This document shows, one piece after another, positions 49,313-57,618 of a stretch of DNA of 62,539 nucleotides. Source of the stretch: an uncultured Oscillospiraceae bacterium (GTDB taxonomy: Bacteria; Bacillota; Clostridia; Oscillospirales; Oscillospiraceae); NCBI GenBank assembly GCA_944385445.1, contig CALWXF010000012.1, positions 1 through 62,539 on the forward strand, given 5' to 3'. The position numbers and the translations under genes were made by a program. A model generated the notes under the pieces. The model searched no databases and was not told where the DNA came from. It worked only from the letters and a program-made list of their open reading frames with translations. How positions within the stretch are numbered: position 1 is the stretch's first letter; each line of letters opens with the position of its first letter.

Positions 49313-50614
49313 TCACTTCCCAAGCAGTCCATACTTCTTGCGCATACGCCGAATTTTCTTCAGCATGGGCTTGGCACAGAGCAATAAAAACACCACAGTG
49401 GATATCCCGTGGGTGACATTCACGGGAACCCCCGCCACATAGCAGGCCAACGCCGACTGCCAGGTAAGCCCGTCCAACACAAATAGAGCTGTGGAAGTGT
49501 CCATCAACAGGCCGTAGATGACCACGGTGGCCAGAAACCCATATATGCACACCCCGATCAGAGGGATGTGCCCTCGCCGCATCCGCTTTTCAAAGAGCAG
49601 GCCCGCCAAGAATCCGATGATGCCAAAGGCGAACATCTGCCAGGGGGTCCAGGGCCCCTGCCCAAAGAAAAAGTTGGACACAAACCCGGTCATGGCTCCG
49701 GCGAGAAACCCCGCCTCTGCCCCCAGCCCGATGCCTGCCACGATCACCAGAGCGGTCACCGGCTTGAAGTGGGGGAGCATGAAAAACACCGCCCGCCCCG
49801 CCGTGGCGATGACCACTAGGGAGGAGATGAGCACCAGTTCCCTGGCCTGGGGACGGCGGTCCTCAAAGGCGGCAAAAAATGGGAGCATGGCCGCCACAAT
49901 AACGCAGATGGAGATGAAATAGTAGCTGCGCCCCTTCAAAAACACAATGCCAAAGGCGATGAGCAGCGGAATGAGCACCAAAATCACCCCGGCAGCCAAT
50001 CGGGTCCGCCGCCCCATGCCCCGAACGGTGGGCACCGAGGCCAGCTCCACCCGCTGGGTGTTCAGCAGCCGCCCAGCTCCCAAAAGAAGGGCCACCCCTG
50101 CCGCCCCTTGGCCGCAGGCAAACCCGGTCAGCTGCATGTGGCTGAACACCGTCAGGTCCCAAAATGTGTTGCTCTGGCCCAAAGCGGCGTTGAGCTTCCC
50201 ACTCAGGCGGACAAGCACCACCGCCGCCCCCACCACAGAGAGCAAGGCCAGAAGAGCGGACAGCCGCACCGCCGCCGTGGCGCATTTCTTGCGCCGCCAG
50301 GCCAGCCCGGCGGCCAGGAGCAGCGCAGGAATGGACAGCCCCGCTGCAAGCTGGGTGGCCCTCAGCCATACCAGCGTTCCCCCAGACAACTTCAGCAGCT
50401 GGGGCGCCTGCACCAGATACATCTGTTGGGCCAAGTCCACACTCTCCCCCACCCGCCACAGGGAAAACTGGTGGGTCAGGCCCTGATAGGCCAGCTCCGG
50501 GATGGAAAACCAGGGGGCAACGGCCGCATTGACCGCCATGGCTACACACAGCCACATCGCCGCCATCACCCAGCTGTCTGCCCCAGTGCCCGTTTTCACT
50601 TGTCTTGCGTACAT
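49313..50614 (-). CDS. ECF transporter S component with N-terminal membrane extension
   Basis: 433 residues. The C-terminal part (about 240-433) is a typical ECF-type substrate-binding membrane protein: YYFISICVIVAAMLPFFAAFE, SSLVVIATAGRAVFFMLP, GAEAGFLAGAMTGFVSNFFFGQGPWTPWQMF. The first 240 residues add four or five more helices and an outer loop, roughly doubling the normal S-protein size. It ends the riboswitch-controlled operon; ATG 50614 overlaps the ATPase gene by 19 bp. Substrate presumably a corrinoid or its precursor, inferred from the riboswitch. Confidence 0.85.
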   Translation of the reverse strand: MYARQVKTGTGADSWVMAAMWLCVAMAVNAAVAPWFSIPELAYQGLTHQFSLWRVGESVDLAQQMYLVQAPQLLKLSGGTLVWLRATQLAAGLSIPALLLAAGLAWRRKKCATAAVRLSALLALLSVVGAAVVLVRLSGKLNAALGQSNTFWDLTVFSHMQLTGFACGQGAAGVALLLGAGRLLNTQRVELASVPTVRGMGRRTRLAAGVILVLIPLLIAFGIVFLKGRSYYFISICVIVAAMLPFFAAFEDRRPQARELVLISSLVVIATAGRAVFFMLPHFKPVTALVIVAGIGLGAEAGFLAGAMTGFVSNFFFGQGPWTPWQMFAFGIIGFLAGLLFEKRMRRGHIPLIGVCIYGFLATVVIYGLLMDTSTALFVLDGLTWQSALACYVAGVPVNVTHGISTVVFLLLCAKPMLKKIRRMRKKYGLLGK

Positions 50615-52245
50615 GCCCACACCACATCCTCCACCGTCACCGCCTGGGGAAAGACCTCCCGTGCCATCTGATTGGCGGCGGTAGTGTAAAAATGATTGCC
50701 CAGGAAGAAATCCCGGGCGGGTTTCTGGCACACCAGCTGGCCCCGGAACAGCAGCCCGCAGGTATGGGCATAGGCGGCACAGAACTCCACGTCGTGGGAG
50801 ACCATGAACACCGTCTTGCCCTGCCCGGTGAGCGCTCTCAGCACCTGGGCCAGGGTCTGCTTATAGCATCCGTCCAGCCCCTTGGTGGGCTCGTCCAACA
50901 GGAGGATCTCCGGGTCCAGCAGCAGCACCTTGGCCAGAGCCGCCCGCTGCTGCTCTCCCCCAGACAAATCATAGGGGTGCTGACCCAGCAGGCCCTCCAG
51001 CTGGGTCACACGGATGGCCTGGGCCAGACGGTTCTCCCGTTCCGTTCTGGACAGGGGCAGCTCGTCCAGAAGCTCCTCCAGGTCTGCCCCCACCGTGTCC
51101 TGCACAAAGAGGCACTGGGGATTCTGGGGCAGCACCCCCAGCACGCCCCGCTCCAGAGACATGCCCCGCTTTCGCACCTGACCGCCAATGCGGATTTGGC
51201 CCCGATAGGGCCGATGTTCGCCAGAGAAGAGGGAGAGGGCCGTGGTCTTGCCCCCTCCGTTGCCGCCCATGAGGGCGTACAGCTGTCCTCTGGGCACCTG
51301 GAGGTTGAGCCCCTGGAGCACATCCGCCCCGTGGCGGTCATAGCGGAACCACACCTCTCTGGCCTCCAGGGCAAAGTCCCTGGGTGCGGGCTGGGCGTGG
51401 GGCTCCATGGGGGGCTGGGGCTTGTCCCGGTACTGCTCCAGCCAGGTCCGCCCCTCCTTCACTGTCATGGGGCAGGCCTCTCCCCCTTCCACCCGGCTGT
51501 AAATTTGCATGGGCACCGGGCAGCACACCCCCAAGGGATGGTGGGCCAGCGCCTGTCCCACTTGCCGGGGGGAGCCGTCACAGAGGACTTTGCCCTCCTC
51601 CAGCACCACCACCCGGTCGGCCATGGGGAACACCTGGTCCAGGCGGTGCTCCACCACCACCACGGTCAGCCCCAGCTGCTGGTTGAGCCGCTGGAGGGTG
51701 TGGAGAAAGTCGGTGGCCGCCATGGGGTCCAGCTGGGAGGTGGGCTCGTCCAGCACTAGCACCTGGGGGTGCATGGCCATCACCGAGGCCAGGTTGAGAA
51801 GCTGCTGTTCTCCCCCGGACAGCTCCTCCACCTTCCGGTCCAACCAGCCCTGGAGACCAAAATAGCTGGCCATCTCCGCCACCCTCAGCCGCATGTCCCC
51901 CAGCTCCAACCCCAGATTCTCCAGACCGAAGGCCATCTCATGCCACACTTTGTCGGTGACCAGCTGCTGCTGGGGATTTTGCATCACAAAGCCGATCTCC
52001 CCCGCCTGGGTTCGCAGGTCCACCTGGTGCAGCGGGGTCCCCTTGTAGAAAATCTCTCCGGTCCGGGTTCCATGTGGCGTGAGGGTGCTTTTGAACTGGC
52101 GGATGAGGGTGGATTTCCCGCACCCGGACCGCCCGCAGATCACCACGAATTCCCCCGGCTCAATGTGAAGGTTCACCTCTCGCAGCGCAGAGGCCGACGA
52201 GTCAGGATAGGAGAAGGTCAAATTTTGCACATCCAATAACGCCAT
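50596..52245 (-). CDS. ECF transporter fused double ATPase
   Basis: 549 residues with two complete ATPase domains in one chain, replacing separate EcfA1 and EcfA2. Domain 1: Walker A GRSGCGKST (residues 38-46), LSGGEQQLLNLAS, VLVLDEPTSQLDP. Domain 2: Walker A GGNGGGKTT near residue 320, LSGGEQQRAALAK, ILLLDEPTKGLD. The Q-loop FVMQNPQQQLV is ECF-like. Start ATG 52245 has GGAGG 7 nt upstream and overlaps the T-component gene by 28 bp. Confidence 0.94.
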   Translation of the reverse strand: MALLDVQNLTFSYPDSSASALREVNLHIEPGEFVVICGRSGCGKSTLIRQFKSTLTPHGTRTGEIFYKGTPLHQVDLRTQAGEIGFVMQNPQQQLVTDKVWHEMAFGLENLGLELGDMRLRVAEMASYFGLQGWLDRKVEELSGGEQQLLNLASVMAMHPQVLVLDEPTSQLDPMAATDFLHTLQRLNQQLGLTVVVVEHRLDQVFPMADRVVVLEEGKVLCDGSPRQVGQALAHHPLGVCCPVPMQIYSRVEGGEACPMTVKEGRTWLEQYRDKPQPPMEPHAQPAPRDFALEAREVWFRYDRHGADVLQGLNLQVPRGQLYALMGGNGGGKTTALSLFSGEHRPYRGQIRIGGQVRKRGMSLERGVLGVLPQNPQCLFVQDTVGADLEELLDELPLSRTERENRLAQAIRVTQLEGLLGQHPYDLSGGEQQRAALAKVLLLDPEILLLDEPTKGLDGCYKQTLAQVLRALTGQGKTVFMVSHDVEFCAAYAHTCGLLFRGQLVCQKPARDFFLGNHFYTTAANQMAREVFPQAVTVEDVVWACTQDK

Positions 52246-53108
52246 TTCAAATCCTCCACCAGATTGAGTATCAAAGGCAGGGCGCACAGCACCCCATAGA
52301 GGGCATAGCACACGCAGGCCGGGACAGTGGTCCCGTTCAGCTGCCACACCGGGAAATACAGCATGTTCAGCTGTCCCGTGACCACCCCCGCCGCCACACA
52401 TCCAAAGCACATGGCCATGCCCGATGCCAAGGCGGTGGAACGTCCGTCCCAACGGAAGGGGTGGTATAGGGTGCGCCCCCGCAGGCCATAGCCCCGGGCC
52501 CGCATGGAGTCGGCGGTGTCCACCGAGTGCTCCAGGGACCAAGTGACCAGGATGGACAGCACCCGAACGCCTTTCTTCAGCCGCTGCCATGGGGTGCCCT
52601 CCCCCACGTCCCGGCCCACACACCGCTGGGCTGCCATCACCCGCTTGGCCTGGGTCAAAAACAGGGGGAGAAAACGCAGCACCATGGAGAAGATGAGGGC
52701 CAGGGCGGGAAAGCCCTTGCCAAAGAGGTACACCACCTTGTCCTCCGTCATCACGTCCTGCCAGGTGGCACACCACAAGATCACCACTCCCATCATCCCC
52801 CCGGTGCACAACCCGTACACCACAGACTCCAGGGTCACCGGGTTCCCCGAGGGCAGGTACCCCAGGATGGTGAGGCCCTGGTGGGAAAAGAGGGGATTGA
52901 TCACCGCCGAAAGCACCACCACCGGGAGGGCCAGCAGGCATACCTGAACAAGCCCCTTCCCGCCCCGCAGGCGGAACAGATAGGCGGCGGCAGTGACTCC
53001 CGACAGTACCAACAGCACCGGGTGTATGTAAAAGAGGGTGACCCCCAACACCAGAAGGTAAAAGATGAAATTGATGCCCGGATGACAGCGGGAAAACTCG
53101 TCCTTCAC
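52218..53108 (-). CDS. ECF transporter transmembrane T component
   Basis: 296 residues with five or six helices. The N terminus HPGINFIFYLLVLGVTLFYIHP is typical of CbiQ/EcfT. Two coupling motifs with A-R-G are expected; DSMRARGYGLRGRTLYHPF supplies the second, and QRCVGRDVGEGT is in the place of the first. GTG start (53108) after GGAGGAGAGGG. A dedicated T component implies a group I ECF system for one substrate. Confidence 0.9.
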   Translation of the reverse strand: MKDEFSRCHPGINFIFYLLVLGVTLFYIHPVLLVLSGVTAAAYLFRLRGGKGLVQVCLLALPVVVLSAVINPLFSHQGLTILGYLPSGNPVTLESVVYGLCTGGMMGVVILWCATWQDVMTEDKVVYLFGKGFPALALIFSMVLRFLPLFLTQAKRVMAAQRCVGRDVGEGTPWQRLKKGVRVLSILVTWSLEHSVDTADSMRARGYGLRGRTLYHPFRWDGRSTALASGMAMCFGCVAAGVVTGQLNMLYFPVWQLNGTTVPACVCYALYGVLCALPLILNLVEDLKWRYWMCKI

Positions 53109-53126
53109 GCGCCCTCTCCTCCTCTC

Positions 53127-53849
53127 TTACAGGTCAAAGCCCAGATCGCAGGTATACTTAAACTCGATGACGTCCCCGTTCTTCACGGTGTACTTGCTCA
53201 CCCCGTAGTTGGGCTTCACTCCGTTGACATAGTACATCCAGCCGGACCCGGCTCCACAGTCGAACTCATAGAGGTTGTGGATGCCCTCAATGTAGTGGCT
53301 ACCGAAACCAGGGGTATACTCGTACTCCAAGTGAATGCCGTAGGTCCGGGTGGCTCGGAGGAGCACGTCAAACACCGACTCCCCCTCCTCAAAGGAGATG
53401 GCCTTGCGGGACAAAATCACCCCGTCTGAGGGCACCAAGCTCTCCTTCCCCGGCGTTAAATCCTCCATGCGGCCCAAAATGGTCTTGCAGTCAATGGAGA
53501 GATAGCAAGTGTTGACCTTGGGGGTGGTGGTCGGTTTGGGTGTGGGAGCGGGCGTGGCCTTCACCGTCGGCTTCTGGGTGGGTTTGGGCGTGGGCGCCGG
53601 CGTGGCCGCTGCTGGGGCCGACTCTCCCTGCTCCTGACTCAGGGCGGGCTGCTGGGTCGCCGCCGGGGCCTCACTGGCCTTTGGCTCCCCAGAGGGCTGC
53701 TGGCTGGGCGAAAAGGTCTCCTCCACCCCCACGGTTGGGGACACCGTGGGCGTGACCACAGCGCCCTGCTCCCCCGTGTTCCCACAGGCCGCCAAGGTCA
53801 GCAGCAGCAACAGGGAAAACAGGCATATCCATCGTTTCAAATGCTTCAT
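53127..53849 (-). CDS. DUF4430-domain lipoprotein
   Basis: 240 residues. Signal peptide with lipobox LTLAACGN (Cys22). Residues about 30-130 are a Pro/Thr/Lys-rich tether. The C-terminal DUF4430 domain shows ESVFDVLLRATRTYGIHLEYEY, GSHYIEGIHNLYEFDCGAGSGW and MYYVNGVKPNYGVSKYTVKNGD. DUF4430 is the fold of the beta domain of intrinsic factor and transcobalamin. Anchored to the outer face of the membrane next to the ECF transporter, it is likely its corrinoid-binding partner. Confidence 0.88.
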   Translation of the reverse strand: MKHLKRWICLFSLLLLLTLAACGNTGEQGAVVTPTVSPTVGVEETFSPSQQPSGEPKASEAPAATQQPALSQEQGESAPAAATPAPTPKPTQKPTVKATPAPTPKPTTTPKVNTCYLSIDCKTILGRMEDLTPGKESLVPSDGVILSRKAISFEEGESVFDVLLRATRTYGIHLEYEYTPGFGSHYIEGIHNLYEFDCGAGSGWMYYVNGVKPNYGVSKYTVKNGDVIEFKYTCDLGFDL

Positions 53850-53876
53850 AGGCTCTCCTCATACGCCGGAGGCTTT

Positions 53877-56800
53877 TCAGCCCCGTTTCTTTCTCTTACG
53901 GTCGGTCCAAACAGCGGCACACAGACCCGCTGCACTCATACCCAGAATTGCCAGAGCTTCCACCAGAGGGCTGGCATCTCCGGTCTGGGGCACCTGAGGG
54001 TCCTCCTCTCCGCTGTCCCCACCCTGACTGGGAGGTGCAGGAGTCCACTGGGTCAGGTCAAAGAGGGTGTTCTCCCCTGCCACAAAGCGGCGGTAGGCCT
54101 CCAGGGCGTAGCCGATCTGGGCGGTACCCATGCCGTCTGGCTGGTCACTGCTCATAAAGGTGGTGAAGCCAGACTCCCGCTTGAACTGGTCCAGCTTAGT
54201 GACCAAGTTGTAGTTTCCGTGGGTGAACCCGTTGTCCGGGTCCAGGGGGTCGATGCCCGCCACTGCCAAGGCGGTGAGCACCTGGGCGGCGGTACAGCCG
54301 TTGTCATCCCCCTCATTAATGTAGCCGCAGTCGCTGGTCATCTGGCTGCGCAGGTACTCCAGCGCCCGGTCAAAGGCCAGGCCCACCTGCTCCATGTCCC
54401 GGTAGGGGGCCAGGGCCTGGAGGGTCATGGCGGTGACGTCCACGCTCACGGTGTTTGGAGAGGACAGGCCAAAGCCGCCATTTTCATTTTGGAAGGTGAG
54501 GATTTTCTCAATGAGGGTCTCCCGGGTCCACAGGGCATCCTGGGGCACCTCATAGTCCTTGGTGTCCAGGGCCAACAGGGTGTAGCTCATCATGTTGGAG
54601 GTCATGCGGTCCAGATTGGGGTAGTTGTACAGGGTCTCAATGAGGTCCACCCCCGCCACATCGGTGGGGTCCTTCCCCATGGCCAGCAATGCCAACACCA
54701 CCCGGAAGTAGTCGGTGGGCAGCATTCTCCCGCCGCTTTCCAGCTGCTGGGTGACGCTGGCGTAGTAGTGGTCCAGATCGCTTTGGCTGAGGCTGGCCCC
54801 AGCCCGGAACAGGGTAAACAGGCTCCACTCGGCCCCATAGGTGTAGTTGCCCTCCAGCTGGCTGTCCAGGTAGGCCAGAGCGTGGCTGATGTTGTCCGTA
54901 ACATACCGGTCAAAATCCAGGTCCTCTACGGCGTCCGGCTGGGTCACCGTCACCGTGAACTGGATGGGCTTTGCCCCCTTGGTGTCGTCCAGGGGGGTGC
55001 CCGTCACCGTCACCGTGCCCTGCTCCAAGGCCGAGAGGGTGTGGGTGGTGGTGATGGTACCGGGGGTGCTGCTGACATAGTCGTTGACCTTCACAATGCC
55101 ATCCTGGCTATAGGTCCAGGTAAACCGCTGGTTGGTGGCGTTGGCAGGCGTAACCAGAAGATTCAGGTCCATAGACTCATATTGAGCCAGGGTGAAGGCG
55201 GTTTTCTCCAGCTCCACCTGCTCCAGAGGATGCTTATACTCAAAGCGAATGGTAATGTCCTGGGTCGCTGCGGGGTTGTCCACGCTGGTGACGGTAAACC
55301 GGGCCGAGCCCGCCTTCTTTGGAACAATGCCGTTGCCATAAGTGGCCTGGTATTCCGCCACATCCGGGTCGTGGGACACCCACACCACGTCCTTGATGGT
55401 GGCGTTATAGGGCTCAATGTTGATCTCATACCGCCGCTCCGGGTCGGTGTCATGGGAGGTAATGCCCACATACTGGCCTCCCAGGCCGTTCCACCCCTCA
55501 ATGTAGAACACCTCTGGATAGGTCACCGTCAGGCCGGTCACGTCAATGCGCTGGGCGGTGGCCTGGAAGCTCACCGCAACCTGGGGGTTGTCCGCCAGGG
55601 ACACGGTAAAGATGTGCATGGACTGGTCCTCAGCAAAGAACTCCAGTCCGTTCTCCTTGTCCTGGGTGTAGATGTAGGAGCCTTCGGTGGAGGTCATCTC
55701 CAGAGCCTGGTTGGGGATGGGGATATACACCCCATCCAGGCAGCCCTTCACCGTCAGCTGCTGGGGCTGGGTGCCGCTCAAATGGAGGGGCTCCTCTCCG
55801 GTGACAGGCCAGCCATTCTGGAACAACTTCAGGTCGGTGACCTGGGTGGGCACCACCTTCAACGTGAAGGTGGCCAACTCCTGGGCCTCATACCAATCGG
55901 GGTTCTTGTCGTAGACATGGGCCTGATACTCGCCCACAGAGGGATAAAACTTACCGCCGGAGGAGATGTAGATGGTGGAGGACTCCGAGCCTCCGTTTTG
56001 CTGGCTGCAGCTCCAATAGGTGCTCTGCCCCTCGGCTACGCCCTCCAGCACAAACCGCCCCTCATCCAGAGCAGAGAGGGTGAAGGTATGGGTGTCGTCC
56101 CAGGGGGTGATGCGCCCATCCGTATGGTAAAACACCACCGTGGGGGTGGTGGGCACTTCTCGGGGGGTGACGGTGACGGTGCACACGGCGCTGCAATCGC
56201 CAGCCGTCACCGTGATCTGGGCGCTGCCCGCCTGGTGGGCCACCACCAGGCCGCTGTCATCCACGCTGACACAGTCGGGGTTGCTGCTCTGCCACACCAC
56301 AGCGTCGGTGGAGTCGGCCGGAGTCACCGTGGCGGTAAGCCGCACCCCCTGCCCTGCCTCCAGGTCCAGCTGAGTCTCACTCAGGGTAACAGACTGGGCG
56401 GCAATGCCCGTCACGGTCACCATCACCGTGGCCTTCACCGCCTCGTTGGCCTGGGCGGTGATGACGGCGGTGCCCGCTCCCACAGCCCGCACCACGCCCT
56501 GATCGGTGACCTGGGCCACATGGGTGTCCTCACTGTACCACACCACGGTGTCGTTACTCTCCTCTGGGGTCACCGCAGCGGTGAGGGACTGCGTCTGTCC
56601 CACCATCAGGGTCACTTCCCCGGGGGTCACGGTGATGTTGGTGGCGGGGACCTTCTGGGCCAGCAGCTGGGAGATGATCCGGGTCTGCTCATTCACCTGC
56701 TCCTGGGTGGCTGTCCCGTCCACCGCCACCTGCAACGCCTGCTCATAGGCCTGGGCGTTGGCGTCAATCTGGGCCTGGGTGAGCTGGGCCAGACTGGACA

Positions 56801-57308
56801 CCAGTTTGTCCTTGTTGATCCCCAGAGCGCCCTGTCCGCCCTCTGCCGCAGGCGGGATGTAGTCGGGGGTGCCCTGGGCGCTGTCCTGAACGTAAATGAG
56901 GCGAATCACCTCACCTGCCTGAACCTGGTACTTGTTGCCCACTTTGACACTGTCCACAAAGGGCCACCAGGCTTTTTTGCCCCAGTTCACCTCGCCCACC
57001 GCTTCACCCTCGTTGGGGGTGACGGTAAAGCCGTACAGGGTGCTGTAGGTCACGCTGCCCCGTTCCTGATAGCCCCGTTGCAGCACGTCCACCAGGACCT
57101 CTCCCTCCTCCAGCTCCACTTGTGTGGGAGGCAGATAGTACATGGTATTCCCGTCCTCATCGGTGTACTCCATGGTCACCGTCACGGTCTGGGCTCCGCT
57201 CCGGCTGATATCCAGGGCCAATGCCCCAGATACCAGCGCCCACACCATGGCCAGGGTCAGCACCAGGCTGAGGAGCCGCCGCCCCCTTCTTCTCGATTCT
57301 GCTCTCAT
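53877..57308 (-). CDS. sortase-anchored transcobalamin-like surface protein
   Basis: 1143 residues. Signal peptide about 1-32; N-terminal DUF4430-like domain about 41-142 (EEGEVLVDVLQRGYQERG, WWPFVDSVKVGNKYQVQAGE); helical linker; two BIG2-type Ig-like domains about 221-390, then further Ig-like modules to about 790. Residues about 792-1083 form helical repeats of the alpha/alpha-barrel type (NISHALAYLDSQLEG, MMSYTLLALD, FQNENGGFGL, CTAAQVLTALAVAGIDP), as in the alpha domain of intrinsic factor. Sorting signal VPQTGD (1106-1111), hydrophobic helix and RKRKKRG tail. First gene after the cobalamin riboswitch, so probably a corrinoid-capturing wall protein. Confidence 0.87.
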   Translation of the reverse strand: MRAESRRRGRRLLSLVLTLAMVWALVSGALALDISRSGAQTVTVTMEYTDEDGNTMYYLPPTQVELEEGEVLVDVLQRGYQERGSVTYSTLYGFTVTPNEGEAVGEVNWGKKAWWPFVDSVKVGNKYQVQAGEVIRLIYVQDSAQGTPDYIPPAAEGGQGALGINKDKLVSSLAQLTQAQIDANAQAYEQALQVAVDGTATQEQVNEQTRIISQLLAQKVPATNITVTPGEVTLMVGQTQSLTAAVTPEESNDTVVWYSEDTHVAQVTDQGVVRAVGAGTAVITAQANEAVKATVMVTVTGIAAQSVTLSETQLDLEAGQGVRLTATVTPADSTDAVVWQSSNPDCVSVDDSGLVVAHQAGSAQITVTAGDCSAVCTVTVTPREVPTTPTVVFYHTDGRITPWDDTHTFTLSALDEGRFVLEGVAEGQSTYWSCSQQNGGSESSTIYISSGGKFYPSVGEYQAHVYDKNPDWYEAQELATFTLKVVPTQVTDLKLFQNGWPVTGEEPLHLSGTQPQQLTVKGCLDGVYIPIPNQALEMTSTEGSYIYTQDKENGLEFFAEDQSMHIFTVSLADNPQVAVSFQATAQRIDVTGLTVTYPEVFYIEGWNGLGGQYVGITSHDTDPERRYEINIEPYNATIKDVVWVSHDPDVAEYQATYGNGIVPKKAGSARFTVTSVDNPAATQDITIRFEYKHPLEQVELEKTAFTLAQYESMDLNLLVTPANATNQRFTWTYSQDGIVKVNDYVSSTPGTITTTHTLSALEQGTVTVTGTPLDDTKGAKPIQFTVTVTQPDAVEDLDFDRYVTDNISHALAYLDSQLEGNYTYGAEWSLFTLFRAGASLSQSDLDHYYASVTQQLESGGRMLPTDYFRVVLALLAMGKDPTDVAGVDLIETLYNYPNLDRMTSNMMSYTLLALDTKDYEVPQDALWTRETLIEKILTFQNENGGFGLSSPNTVSVDVTAMTLQALAPYRDMEQVGLAFDRALEYLRSQMTSDCGYINEGDDNGCTAAQVLTALAVAGIDPLDPDNGFTHGNYNLVTKLDQFKRESGFTTFMSSDQPDGMGTAQIGYALEAYRRFVAGENTLFDLTQWTPAPPSQGGDSGEEDPQVPQTGDASPLVEALAILGMSAAGLCAAVWTDRKRKKRG

Positions 57309-57340
57309 GTTCTCAAGTCCTTTCCTGGGAAATGAATATC

Positions 57341-57375
57341 AAAAAGCGGCTGCAACCAGTGGTTGCAGCCGCTTT
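57341..57375 (-). terminator. expression-platform terminator of the cobalamin riboswitch
   Basis: AAGCGGCTGCAACC pairs with GGTTGCAGCCGCTT around a 3-nt loop; on the minus strand the stem runs into TTTTTG. It lies 33 bp upstream of the surface-protein start, so the riboswitch works by premature termination. Confidence 0.92.
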
Positions 57376-57424
57376 CAGGCAACACAAAAGGAAGGCCCGC
57401 CCATCGCCTTGGGCGCACCTTGGT

Positions 57425-57600
57425 CCCATCATATGCAGGTCTTCTGGCTCTGGCCTCATCGCCCTGGCCGTCTTCCCAGAAACTTCTGTTTCCAGTGACA
57501 TATTGGCCAGCACTCTTCCATTACAGCGGCGGCTCCGCACAGGTTTTGCACCTGTTTCCCTTTTCAATCTGCCCGATCACAGATCACACATGTGGTTTAT
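57425..57600 (-). promoter_or_regulatory. cobalamin (B12) riboswitch
   Basis: Minus strand: the P3-P6 core region reads GGTGCAAAACCTGTGCGG, then AGCCGCCGCTGTAATGGAAG, later CACTGG and CTGGGAAGACGGC, ending in the B12 box GAGCCAGAAGACCTGC (57433-57451 region). These match the conserved blocks of cobalamin riboswitches in order and spacing. With the downstream terminator it should switch the whole operon (57308 to 49313) off when adenosyl- or methylcobalamin is plentiful. Confidence 0.95.
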
Positions 57601-57612
57601 GTAGTTGTCTCT

Positions 57613-57618
57613 ATTATA
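57613..57618 (-). promoter_or_regulatory. promoter -10 of the B12 uptake operon
   Basis: TATAAT on the minus strand, just upstream of the riboswitch aptamer. The -35 is poor (TTTTCG region). The gap from here to hisK contains nothing else recognisable apart from a TATACT -10 for hisK near 57774. Confidence 0.55.

Follow-up and report, generated by a model that had tools for sequence, protein, structure and literature searches.

A cobalamin-riboswitch operon of an uncultured Oscillospiraceae bacterium encoding a probable corrinoid importer and surface relatives of transcobalamin domains

The window analysed here is a 62,539-nucleotide stretch of DNA from an uncultured Oscillospiraceae bacterium (contig CALWXF010000012.1 of assembly GCA_944385445.1, which is 2.15 Mb long and 91% complete). 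Its minus strand carries an operon of five genes behind a cobalamin (vitamin B12) riboswitch. The proteins it encodes are a wall protein (P0001), a lipoprotein (P0002) and the transmembrane (T), ATPase and substrate-binding (S) components of an energy-coupling factor (ECF) transporter (P0003, P0004 and P0005). A first-pass annotation made from the letters of the window had listed a -10 element, riboswitch, terminator, wall protein, lipoprotein, T component, double ATPase and S component, and all of these parts were found:

49313-57618, minus strand: the whole B12-riboswitch operon; in transcription order TATAAT, riboswitch, hairpin, P0001, P0002, P0003, P0004, P0005
57618-57613, minus strand: TATAAT, a -10-like hexamer directly upstream of the riboswitch; read directly from the letters and absent from the promoter-scan output
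57606-57417, minus strand: cobalamin riboswitch aptamer RF00174 (Rfam, 108.1 bits, E 3.9e-26)
57376-57342, minus strand: intrinsic-terminator-like hairpin in the gap between riboswitch and P0001; 16 bp, 3-nt loop and T-rich 3' end, from RNA folding
57308-53877, minus strand: wall protein P0001, 1143 aa; signal peptide, DUF4430-like domain, Big_2 stretches, toroid and VPQTG end
57191-56873, minus strand: divergent DUF4430-like domain of P0001, residues ~50-143, from our own hidden Markov model (HMM) and BLASTP
54839-54042, minus strand: alpha/alpha toroid domain of P0001, residues 824-1088, from an alignment of 53 domains; 297 bits with our own HMM
53849-53127, minus strand: DUF4430 lipoprotein P0002, 240 aa; PF14478 at E 1.9e-20, lipobox LAAC
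53108-52218, minus strand: EcfT transmembrane (T) component P0003, 296 aa, GTG start; CbiQ PF02361 at E 3.3e-7, above the cut-off
52245-50596, minus strand: fused double ECF ATPase P0004, 549 aa; two ABC_tran stretches, TIGR04520 at 337 bits against a cut-off of 315
50614-49313, minus strand: S component P0005, 433 aa; residues 1-~195 an added membrane region, residues ~200-431 the S domain; match to 6fnp_A

The five genes are tightly spaced, and those for the T component and the ATPase overlap by 28 bases and those for the ATPase and the S component by 19. The RF00174 match is full-length (model positions 1-189 of 189), lies far above the gathering score of 31.5 and is the only one in the assembly. 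A 116-nt stretch that contains the hairpin (57335-57450) folds at -56.8 kcal/mol with a z score of -5.0, and no shuffled sequence folded equally well; the hairpin itself is absent from the output of a simple terminator scan. Cobalamin riboswitches usually act as OFF switches. The aptamer score and the terminator-like hairpin support the B12 control of the operon that had been proposed for it, with the response to the ligand being predicted from the sequence.

The operon has its own T component, two ATPase domains and an S component, the set that characterizes a group-I ECF transporter, and the same set occurs in relatives. In a single-sequence search of the PDB the sole match of P0005 at E ≤ 1 was 6fnp_A (E 3.6e-8), which is ECF-CbrT according to PMC5997447. 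A profile of 35 S domains also placed 6fnp first (E 9.3e-19), about 14 orders of magnitude ahead of the next S component, RibU (5.3e-5), with 4hzu_S at 0.036. Judged by sequence, P0005 is thus a CbrT-type S component, nearest to CbrT among the S components with a solved structure. The first-pass annotation had named beforehand, as an outcome that would refute its reading, an S component that groups with a family not specific for corrinoids; this comparison looked for such a grouping and did not find it. Pfam ranks its riboflavin S-component family first for the S domain, but this label is a poor discriminator because the CbrT segment also matches that family, just below the cut-off. The N-terminal ~195 residues of P0005 (50614 to ~50030, minus strand) are additional to the S domain and contain predicted membrane stretches with no family name. 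Genus relatives with the gene conserve this region, and loci L074 and L125 match it weakly.

P0005 homologues are present in 179 of 394 genomes of the order (E ≤ 0.001, window genome included). From these 179 genomes we picked 40 stretches, mainly by match strength and spread, which we refer to as the order relatives. Across the window's phylum, 115 of 398 genomes hold S homologues at E ≤ 1e-15, a figure that counts the S gene and not the operon. A second set, the 80 public loci, comprises the best 80 of at least 583 that were confirmed, and some of its genomes are also among the order relatives. It includes Pseudoflavonifractor, Blautia, Lutispora, one Bacillus, nine Paenibacillus and many uncultured Clostridia; other phyla are named in assembled-genome titles alone for L078, L089, L099, L101 and L142.

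P0002 has a lipobox (LTLAAC, read from the translation) and a hydrophobic stretch at residues 8-26, identifying it as a lipoprotein, and it is the only lipoprotein in the assembly that PF14478 matches. No NCBIfam model fits its domain. We built a broad profile (A6) from 57 bacterial DUF4430 domains, 55 of them from the retrieved loci (mostly in surface proteins) and two from the window. In the PDB this profile matches transcobalamin-2 first (5no0, the isolated beta domain, E 5.8e-4), followed by 3u7z (0.003), transcobalamin-1 (0.0073) and full-length transcobalamin-2 (0.01), and the matched segment in full-length transcobalamin chains is the C-terminal part. On this evidence the DUF4430 family is homologous to the beta domain of transcobalamin and haptocorrin, as had been proposed at the outset, and P0002 belongs to it through PF14478. 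The InterPro name of the DUF4430 domain presumably refers to transcobalamin as well. DUF4430 is also described at the C terminus of vertebrate transcobalamins (PMC4350170).

Two further observations concern this family. The structure ranking next to transcobalamin with the DUF4430 profile, 3u7z, is named 'putative metal binding protein RUMGNA_00854', and from the locus name we take its source to be Ruminococcus gnavus. Three unannotated records labelled 'Bacteriophage sp.' (MT839226, MT837027 and MT835727) contain a DUF4430 domain 45-48% identical to that of P0002; they may be bacterial DNA or the domain may be phage-borne.

The wall protein combines several modules. Its C terminus has a VPQTG motif, a hydrophobic stretch at residues 1115-1133 and a KRKKRG tail, and the genome holds three sortase genes; PF00746 is not listed for the protein at E ≤ 1. 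Four Big_2 Ig-like stretches are present. The DUF4430-like domain that the first-pass annotation had seen in this protein is recognizable with our own HMM (14.6 bits) and matches a Latilactobacillus DUF4430 domain by BLASTP (E 1.6e-4, in a database of five proteins only), but it is divergent and the signal is weak: it has no Pfam match and lacks the SGW...VNG motif. The alpha/alpha-barrel noted in the same protein is present, and by sequence this toroid can be placed with the alpha domain of transcobalamin at the level of the fold superfamily only. The toroid family is about 265 residues long and lies within 9 kb of the S gene in 50 of the 80 public loci. Members touch Pfam (E ≤ 1) mainly at SQHop_cyclase_C (50/53) and Prenyltrans (44/53), and a toroid profile finds squalene-hopene cyclase (E 2.7e-15), thioester-domain proteins and prenyltransferases in the PDB. 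Because these matches are to cyclases and thioester proteins and do not amount to specific homology, the likeness to the alpha domain rests on the superfamily, the position and the fusions described below. Within P0001 the order of toroid and DUF4430-like domain is reversed relative to transcobalamin, and the main toroid and DUF4430 domains of the window sit on separate proteins. Among ten hand-picked toroid proteins the envelope anchors vary (SLH in six, dockerin in one, LPXTG in one and none of these in two). The PHROGs family phrog_38184, of unknown function, also matches the toroid (P0001 826-1107, E 1.3e-17).

The gene set recurs in other bacteria, as shown by a survey of the kind proposed with the first-pass annotation. 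Within 9 kb of the S gene and on the same strand, toroid, DUF4430, T component and ATPases occur together in 48 of the 80 public loci; DUF4430, T component and ATPases in 14; T component and ATPases only in 12; toroid, T component and ATPases in two; ATPases only in one; and none of these in three. A 592-kb replicon of Latilactobacillus curvatus carries the complete five-gene operon in the order seen in the window (L158 5865-11507), annotated generically as LPXTG protein, DUF4430 protein, EcfT, ABC ATPase and ECF S component.

Toroid and DUF4430 domains also share one open frame in 35 proteins from 120 loci (two pairs seem to be the same genome twice), and in 22 stretches the toroid precedes DUF4430 with fewer than 330 residues between them. 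The shortest gaps are 12 residues, in a 482-aa protein of L036, and 13 residues, in a 441-aa protein of L136, and in both the EcfT gene is directly next. The domain order of transcobalamin, alpha then beta in one chain, is thus seen in these two relatives and not in the window. L087, L133, L134 and L128, from Lutispora and Paenibacillus, encode very large surface proteins with two to three toroids and one to three DUF4430 domains, that of L087 also having SLH.

We judged the linkage to B12 on strand bias and on the spacing between RF00174 and the genes; an enrichment of our own riboswitch model over the RF00174 rate would mix yardsticks and was not used. All 40 order relatives have DUF4430 and 36 have RF00174, which scores above the cut-off in 32; the counts that follow pair the two and also take in matches that fall short of the family cut-off. 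Downstream of a same-strand RF00174 lie 22, 39 and 48 of 86 DUF4430 matches within 3, 6 and 10 kb, respectively, where uniform placement predicts about 0.12, 0.25 and 0.41. At least one DUF4430 match follows a same-strand RF00174 within 10 kb in 29 of the 40, and 41 of 79 RF00174 matches have a DUF4430 gene within 10 kb behind them. For 19 of 40 S genes, the 14 kb of upstream sequence contain a riboswitch on the same strand.

To locate riboswitches in the loci we used a covariance model (R1) built from 20 riboswitches; 23 sequences had been aligned, and L112, one of two in L080, and L044 were removed. In the 80 public loci R1 gives 45 matches, 44 of them on the strand of the S gene. Because 16 of these loci supplied training sequences, the loci outside the training set were counted separately, and there the strand agrees in 24 of 25 matches. 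In the order relatives 20 of 21 matches share the strand of the S gene; the other one, in L049, stands before a divergent toroid-DUF4430 gene. R1 matches upstream of the S gene in 33 of 80 public loci, and in 27 of the 50 with more than 6.5 kb of upstream sequence.

The genome encodes a B12-type methionine synthase, MetH (B12-binding domain E 1.0e-27, remainder read from the frame). A second PF02310 match was discarded, as it lies in an IMP-dehydrogenase-like frame. Neither a FecCD (BtuC-type) permease nor CobS was detected in the assembly by searches that were positive in 13 and 10 of 14 control genomes, respectively; with an assembly 91% complete, these absences are no proof. Given the presence of MetH and the failure to detect CobS or a BtuC-type permease, the operon is probably the main route of corrinoid entry in this host, FecCD being the only other importer family searched for.

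Taken together, these observations suggest that the locus is probably a dedicated operon for the capture and import of corrinoids (the B12 family), in which an importer like ECF-CbrT is joined by surface relatives of the transcobalamin domains. The imported substrate is probably a corrinoid; for the toroid we lean, with less assurance, towards direct contact with it. At low cobalamin the unliganded riboswitch would permit read-through of the terminator, and at high cobalamin, if it follows the usual OFF behaviour, the operon would be shut off. By sequence, P0003, P0004 and P0005 make up an ECF importer of group I whose S component resembles CbrT. The membrane-anchored P0002 may hold the corrinoid at the membrane, while the envelope-anchored P0001, its toroid placed like the alpha domain of transcobalamin, may catch or clamp it farther out. 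The loaded complex would then pass the corrinoid to the S component, and ATP hydrolysis would drive import. We infer both corrinoid binding by the surface parts and the order of handover, in which the wall protein comes first, then the lipoprotein and last the S component.

Several observations weigh against this reading. On the side of the surface domains, Pfam Cobalamin_bind is touched by one of 53 toroid members, at E 0.17, and the toroid profile finds neither transcobalamin nor intrinsic factor in the PDB at E ≤ 1. A narrow profile of the lipoprotein orthologues alone (A4) reaches no transcobalamin there at E ≤ 10, and a combined toroid and DUF4430 profile reaches transcobalamin-2 only at a non-significant E of 1.8, its other matches being those of the toroid. 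Twelve of the 80 public loci have the T component, ATPases and S component without toroid or DUF4430 within 9 kb. As for the control by B12, 21 of 40 S loci lack a same-strand riboswitch within 14 kb upstream, some of them representing a divergent riboswitch gene (L049) or a contig end. No RF00174 match was found in four of the 40 genomes of the order relatives or in nine of the 80 public-locus genomes, including that of the fused L136 protein, and the 16-kb stretch around the L. curvatus operon has no riboswitch match.

The relay fits the data no better than an arrangement in which wall and membrane proteins share one corrinoid. The alpha-like toroid of the wall and the beta-like DUF4430 of the membrane might close on the same molecule, in a composite site that opens onto the S component, an arrangement we regard as possible but tentative. 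It would mirror transcobalamin, whose isolated alpha and beta domains can each bind, the beta domain first and the alpha domain closing, with the association of the two requiring cobalamin (PMC11107200). The fusions of L136 and L036, in transcobalamin order with gaps of 12-13 residues, and the 48 of 80 loci with toroid and DUF4430 genes together within 9 kb of the S gene point the same way. Counting against it, the toroid is placed at superfamily level, with its single Cobalamin_bind match, and P0001 has a DUF4430-like domain of its own. Furthermore, the 14 loci with DUF4430, T component and ATPases have no toroid within 9 kb, and although some of these lie on short contigs, the DUF4430 protein may therefore manage without one. 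With the same reserve we suggest that Bacillota could use a split, envelope-anchored transcobalamin, in which a toroid in the wall or S-layer and a DUF4430 protein at the membrane clamp the corrinoid for delivery to an ECF importer of the CbrT type. If this is true, the system would be a bacterial counterpart, and possibly the bacterial origin, of the architecture of vertebrate intrinsic factor and transcobalamin.

A reading in which the operon imports corrinoids but its wall protein is a mere passenger, an adhesin or a binder of glycans whose toroid stays away from them, is unlikely. The Big_2 Ig-like stretches, the MucBP module that the L. curvatus wall protein carries, the dockerin or SLH modules of other toroid proteins, and the closeness of the toroid in sequence to squalene cyclases and thioester-domain proteins would suit such a role. 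However, the toroid is the constant part among the scanned proteins while the anchors (SLH, LPXTG, dockerin) vary, and in some relatives it is fused directly to DUF4430. Import of cobalt, riboflavin or another vitamin, with the riboswitch merely marking a response to B12 shortage, is improbable: the riboflavin name of the S domain, the CbiQ match of EcfT, the complete L. curvatus operon without a riboswitch and the related loci whose genomes lack RF00174 matches would allow it, but CbrT itself matches the riboflavin family and leads RibU by 9e-19 to 5e-5, DUF4430 is related to transcobalamin, and no CobS was found, so that imported cobalt would be of little use for B12 synthesis.

In the corrinoid-import reading that we favour, the transporter core is of a known kind and the novelty lies in the transcobalamin-like surface parts. 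ECF-CbrT of Lactobacillus delbrueckii (6FNP), the nearest solved relative of P0005, likewise has a T component, two ATPases and an S component; CbrT sits in an nrdJ-cbrS-cbrT-pduO cluster (PMC5997447), whereas the window unites T component, fused double ATPase and S component within a single operon and adds the toroid and DUF4430 surface proteins and the B12 riboswitch. Among the vertebrate carriers transcobalamin, haptocorrin and intrinsic factor, the beta domain is homologous to DUF4430, the alpha domain shares the toroid superfamily, and the domain order is that of the L136 and L036 fusions. In the window, by contrast, the domains are on separate envelope-anchored proteins, and delivery would be to an ECF importer, where the vertebrate carriers deliver to an endocytic receptor. 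The zebrafish proteins Tcnba and Tcnbb consist of a lone transcobalamin beta domain, as in the DUF4430 protein, and are reported to bind cobalamin with high affinity (PMC10778862), but they are vertebrate proteins. BtuG and BtuH of Bacteroides are B12-binding surface proteins for B12 uptake in gut bacteria (PMC6143338, PMC8941943); they differ in being Gram-negative proteins that partner BtuB outer-membrane transporters (PMC10404256). The openings of the abstracts on BtuG and BtuH mention neither DUF4430 nor a toroid. BtuCDF also imports corrinoids with ATP and a binding protein, and no FecCD permease was found in the window's genome.

Among the literature matches listed, in a search that left subscription literature mostly outside, no title or abstract opening describes the operon or assigns corrinoid binding to bacterial proteins with DUF4430 or a toroid. 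The operon would be a testable Gram-positive counterpart to the Bacteroides surface B12 proteins, and would connect nutrient capture in bacteria with domains of the B12 carriers of vertebrates. It also suggests a function for DUF4430, which is rarely mentioned in the literature searched. As a concrete candidate it has breadth, the S gene (counted without the operon) having homologues in the 115 phylum genomes given above. In general terms, its cell-surface parts resemble the B12 carriers of the human stomach and blood, and the gene set recurs in many Gram-positive bacteria.

In some genomes DUF4430 matches follow a cobalamin riboswitch by a few hundred bases and lie away from the same genome's fetched S locus (G008:C1:1207786-1208521, G366:C88:2733-3365 and G306:C52:25917-26552). 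Further riboswitch-near DUF4430 matches away from the fetched S locus are G300:C21:2511-3165 and G191:C13:121177-121853. In the window, a gene like that for the serine dehydratase alpha chain (PF03313; 47963-49237, minus strand) begins 75 bases past the S gene on the same strand. L033 and L035/L073 (the latter two being one genome) likewise have a serine dehydratase-like gene behind the S gene; L034 has no match.

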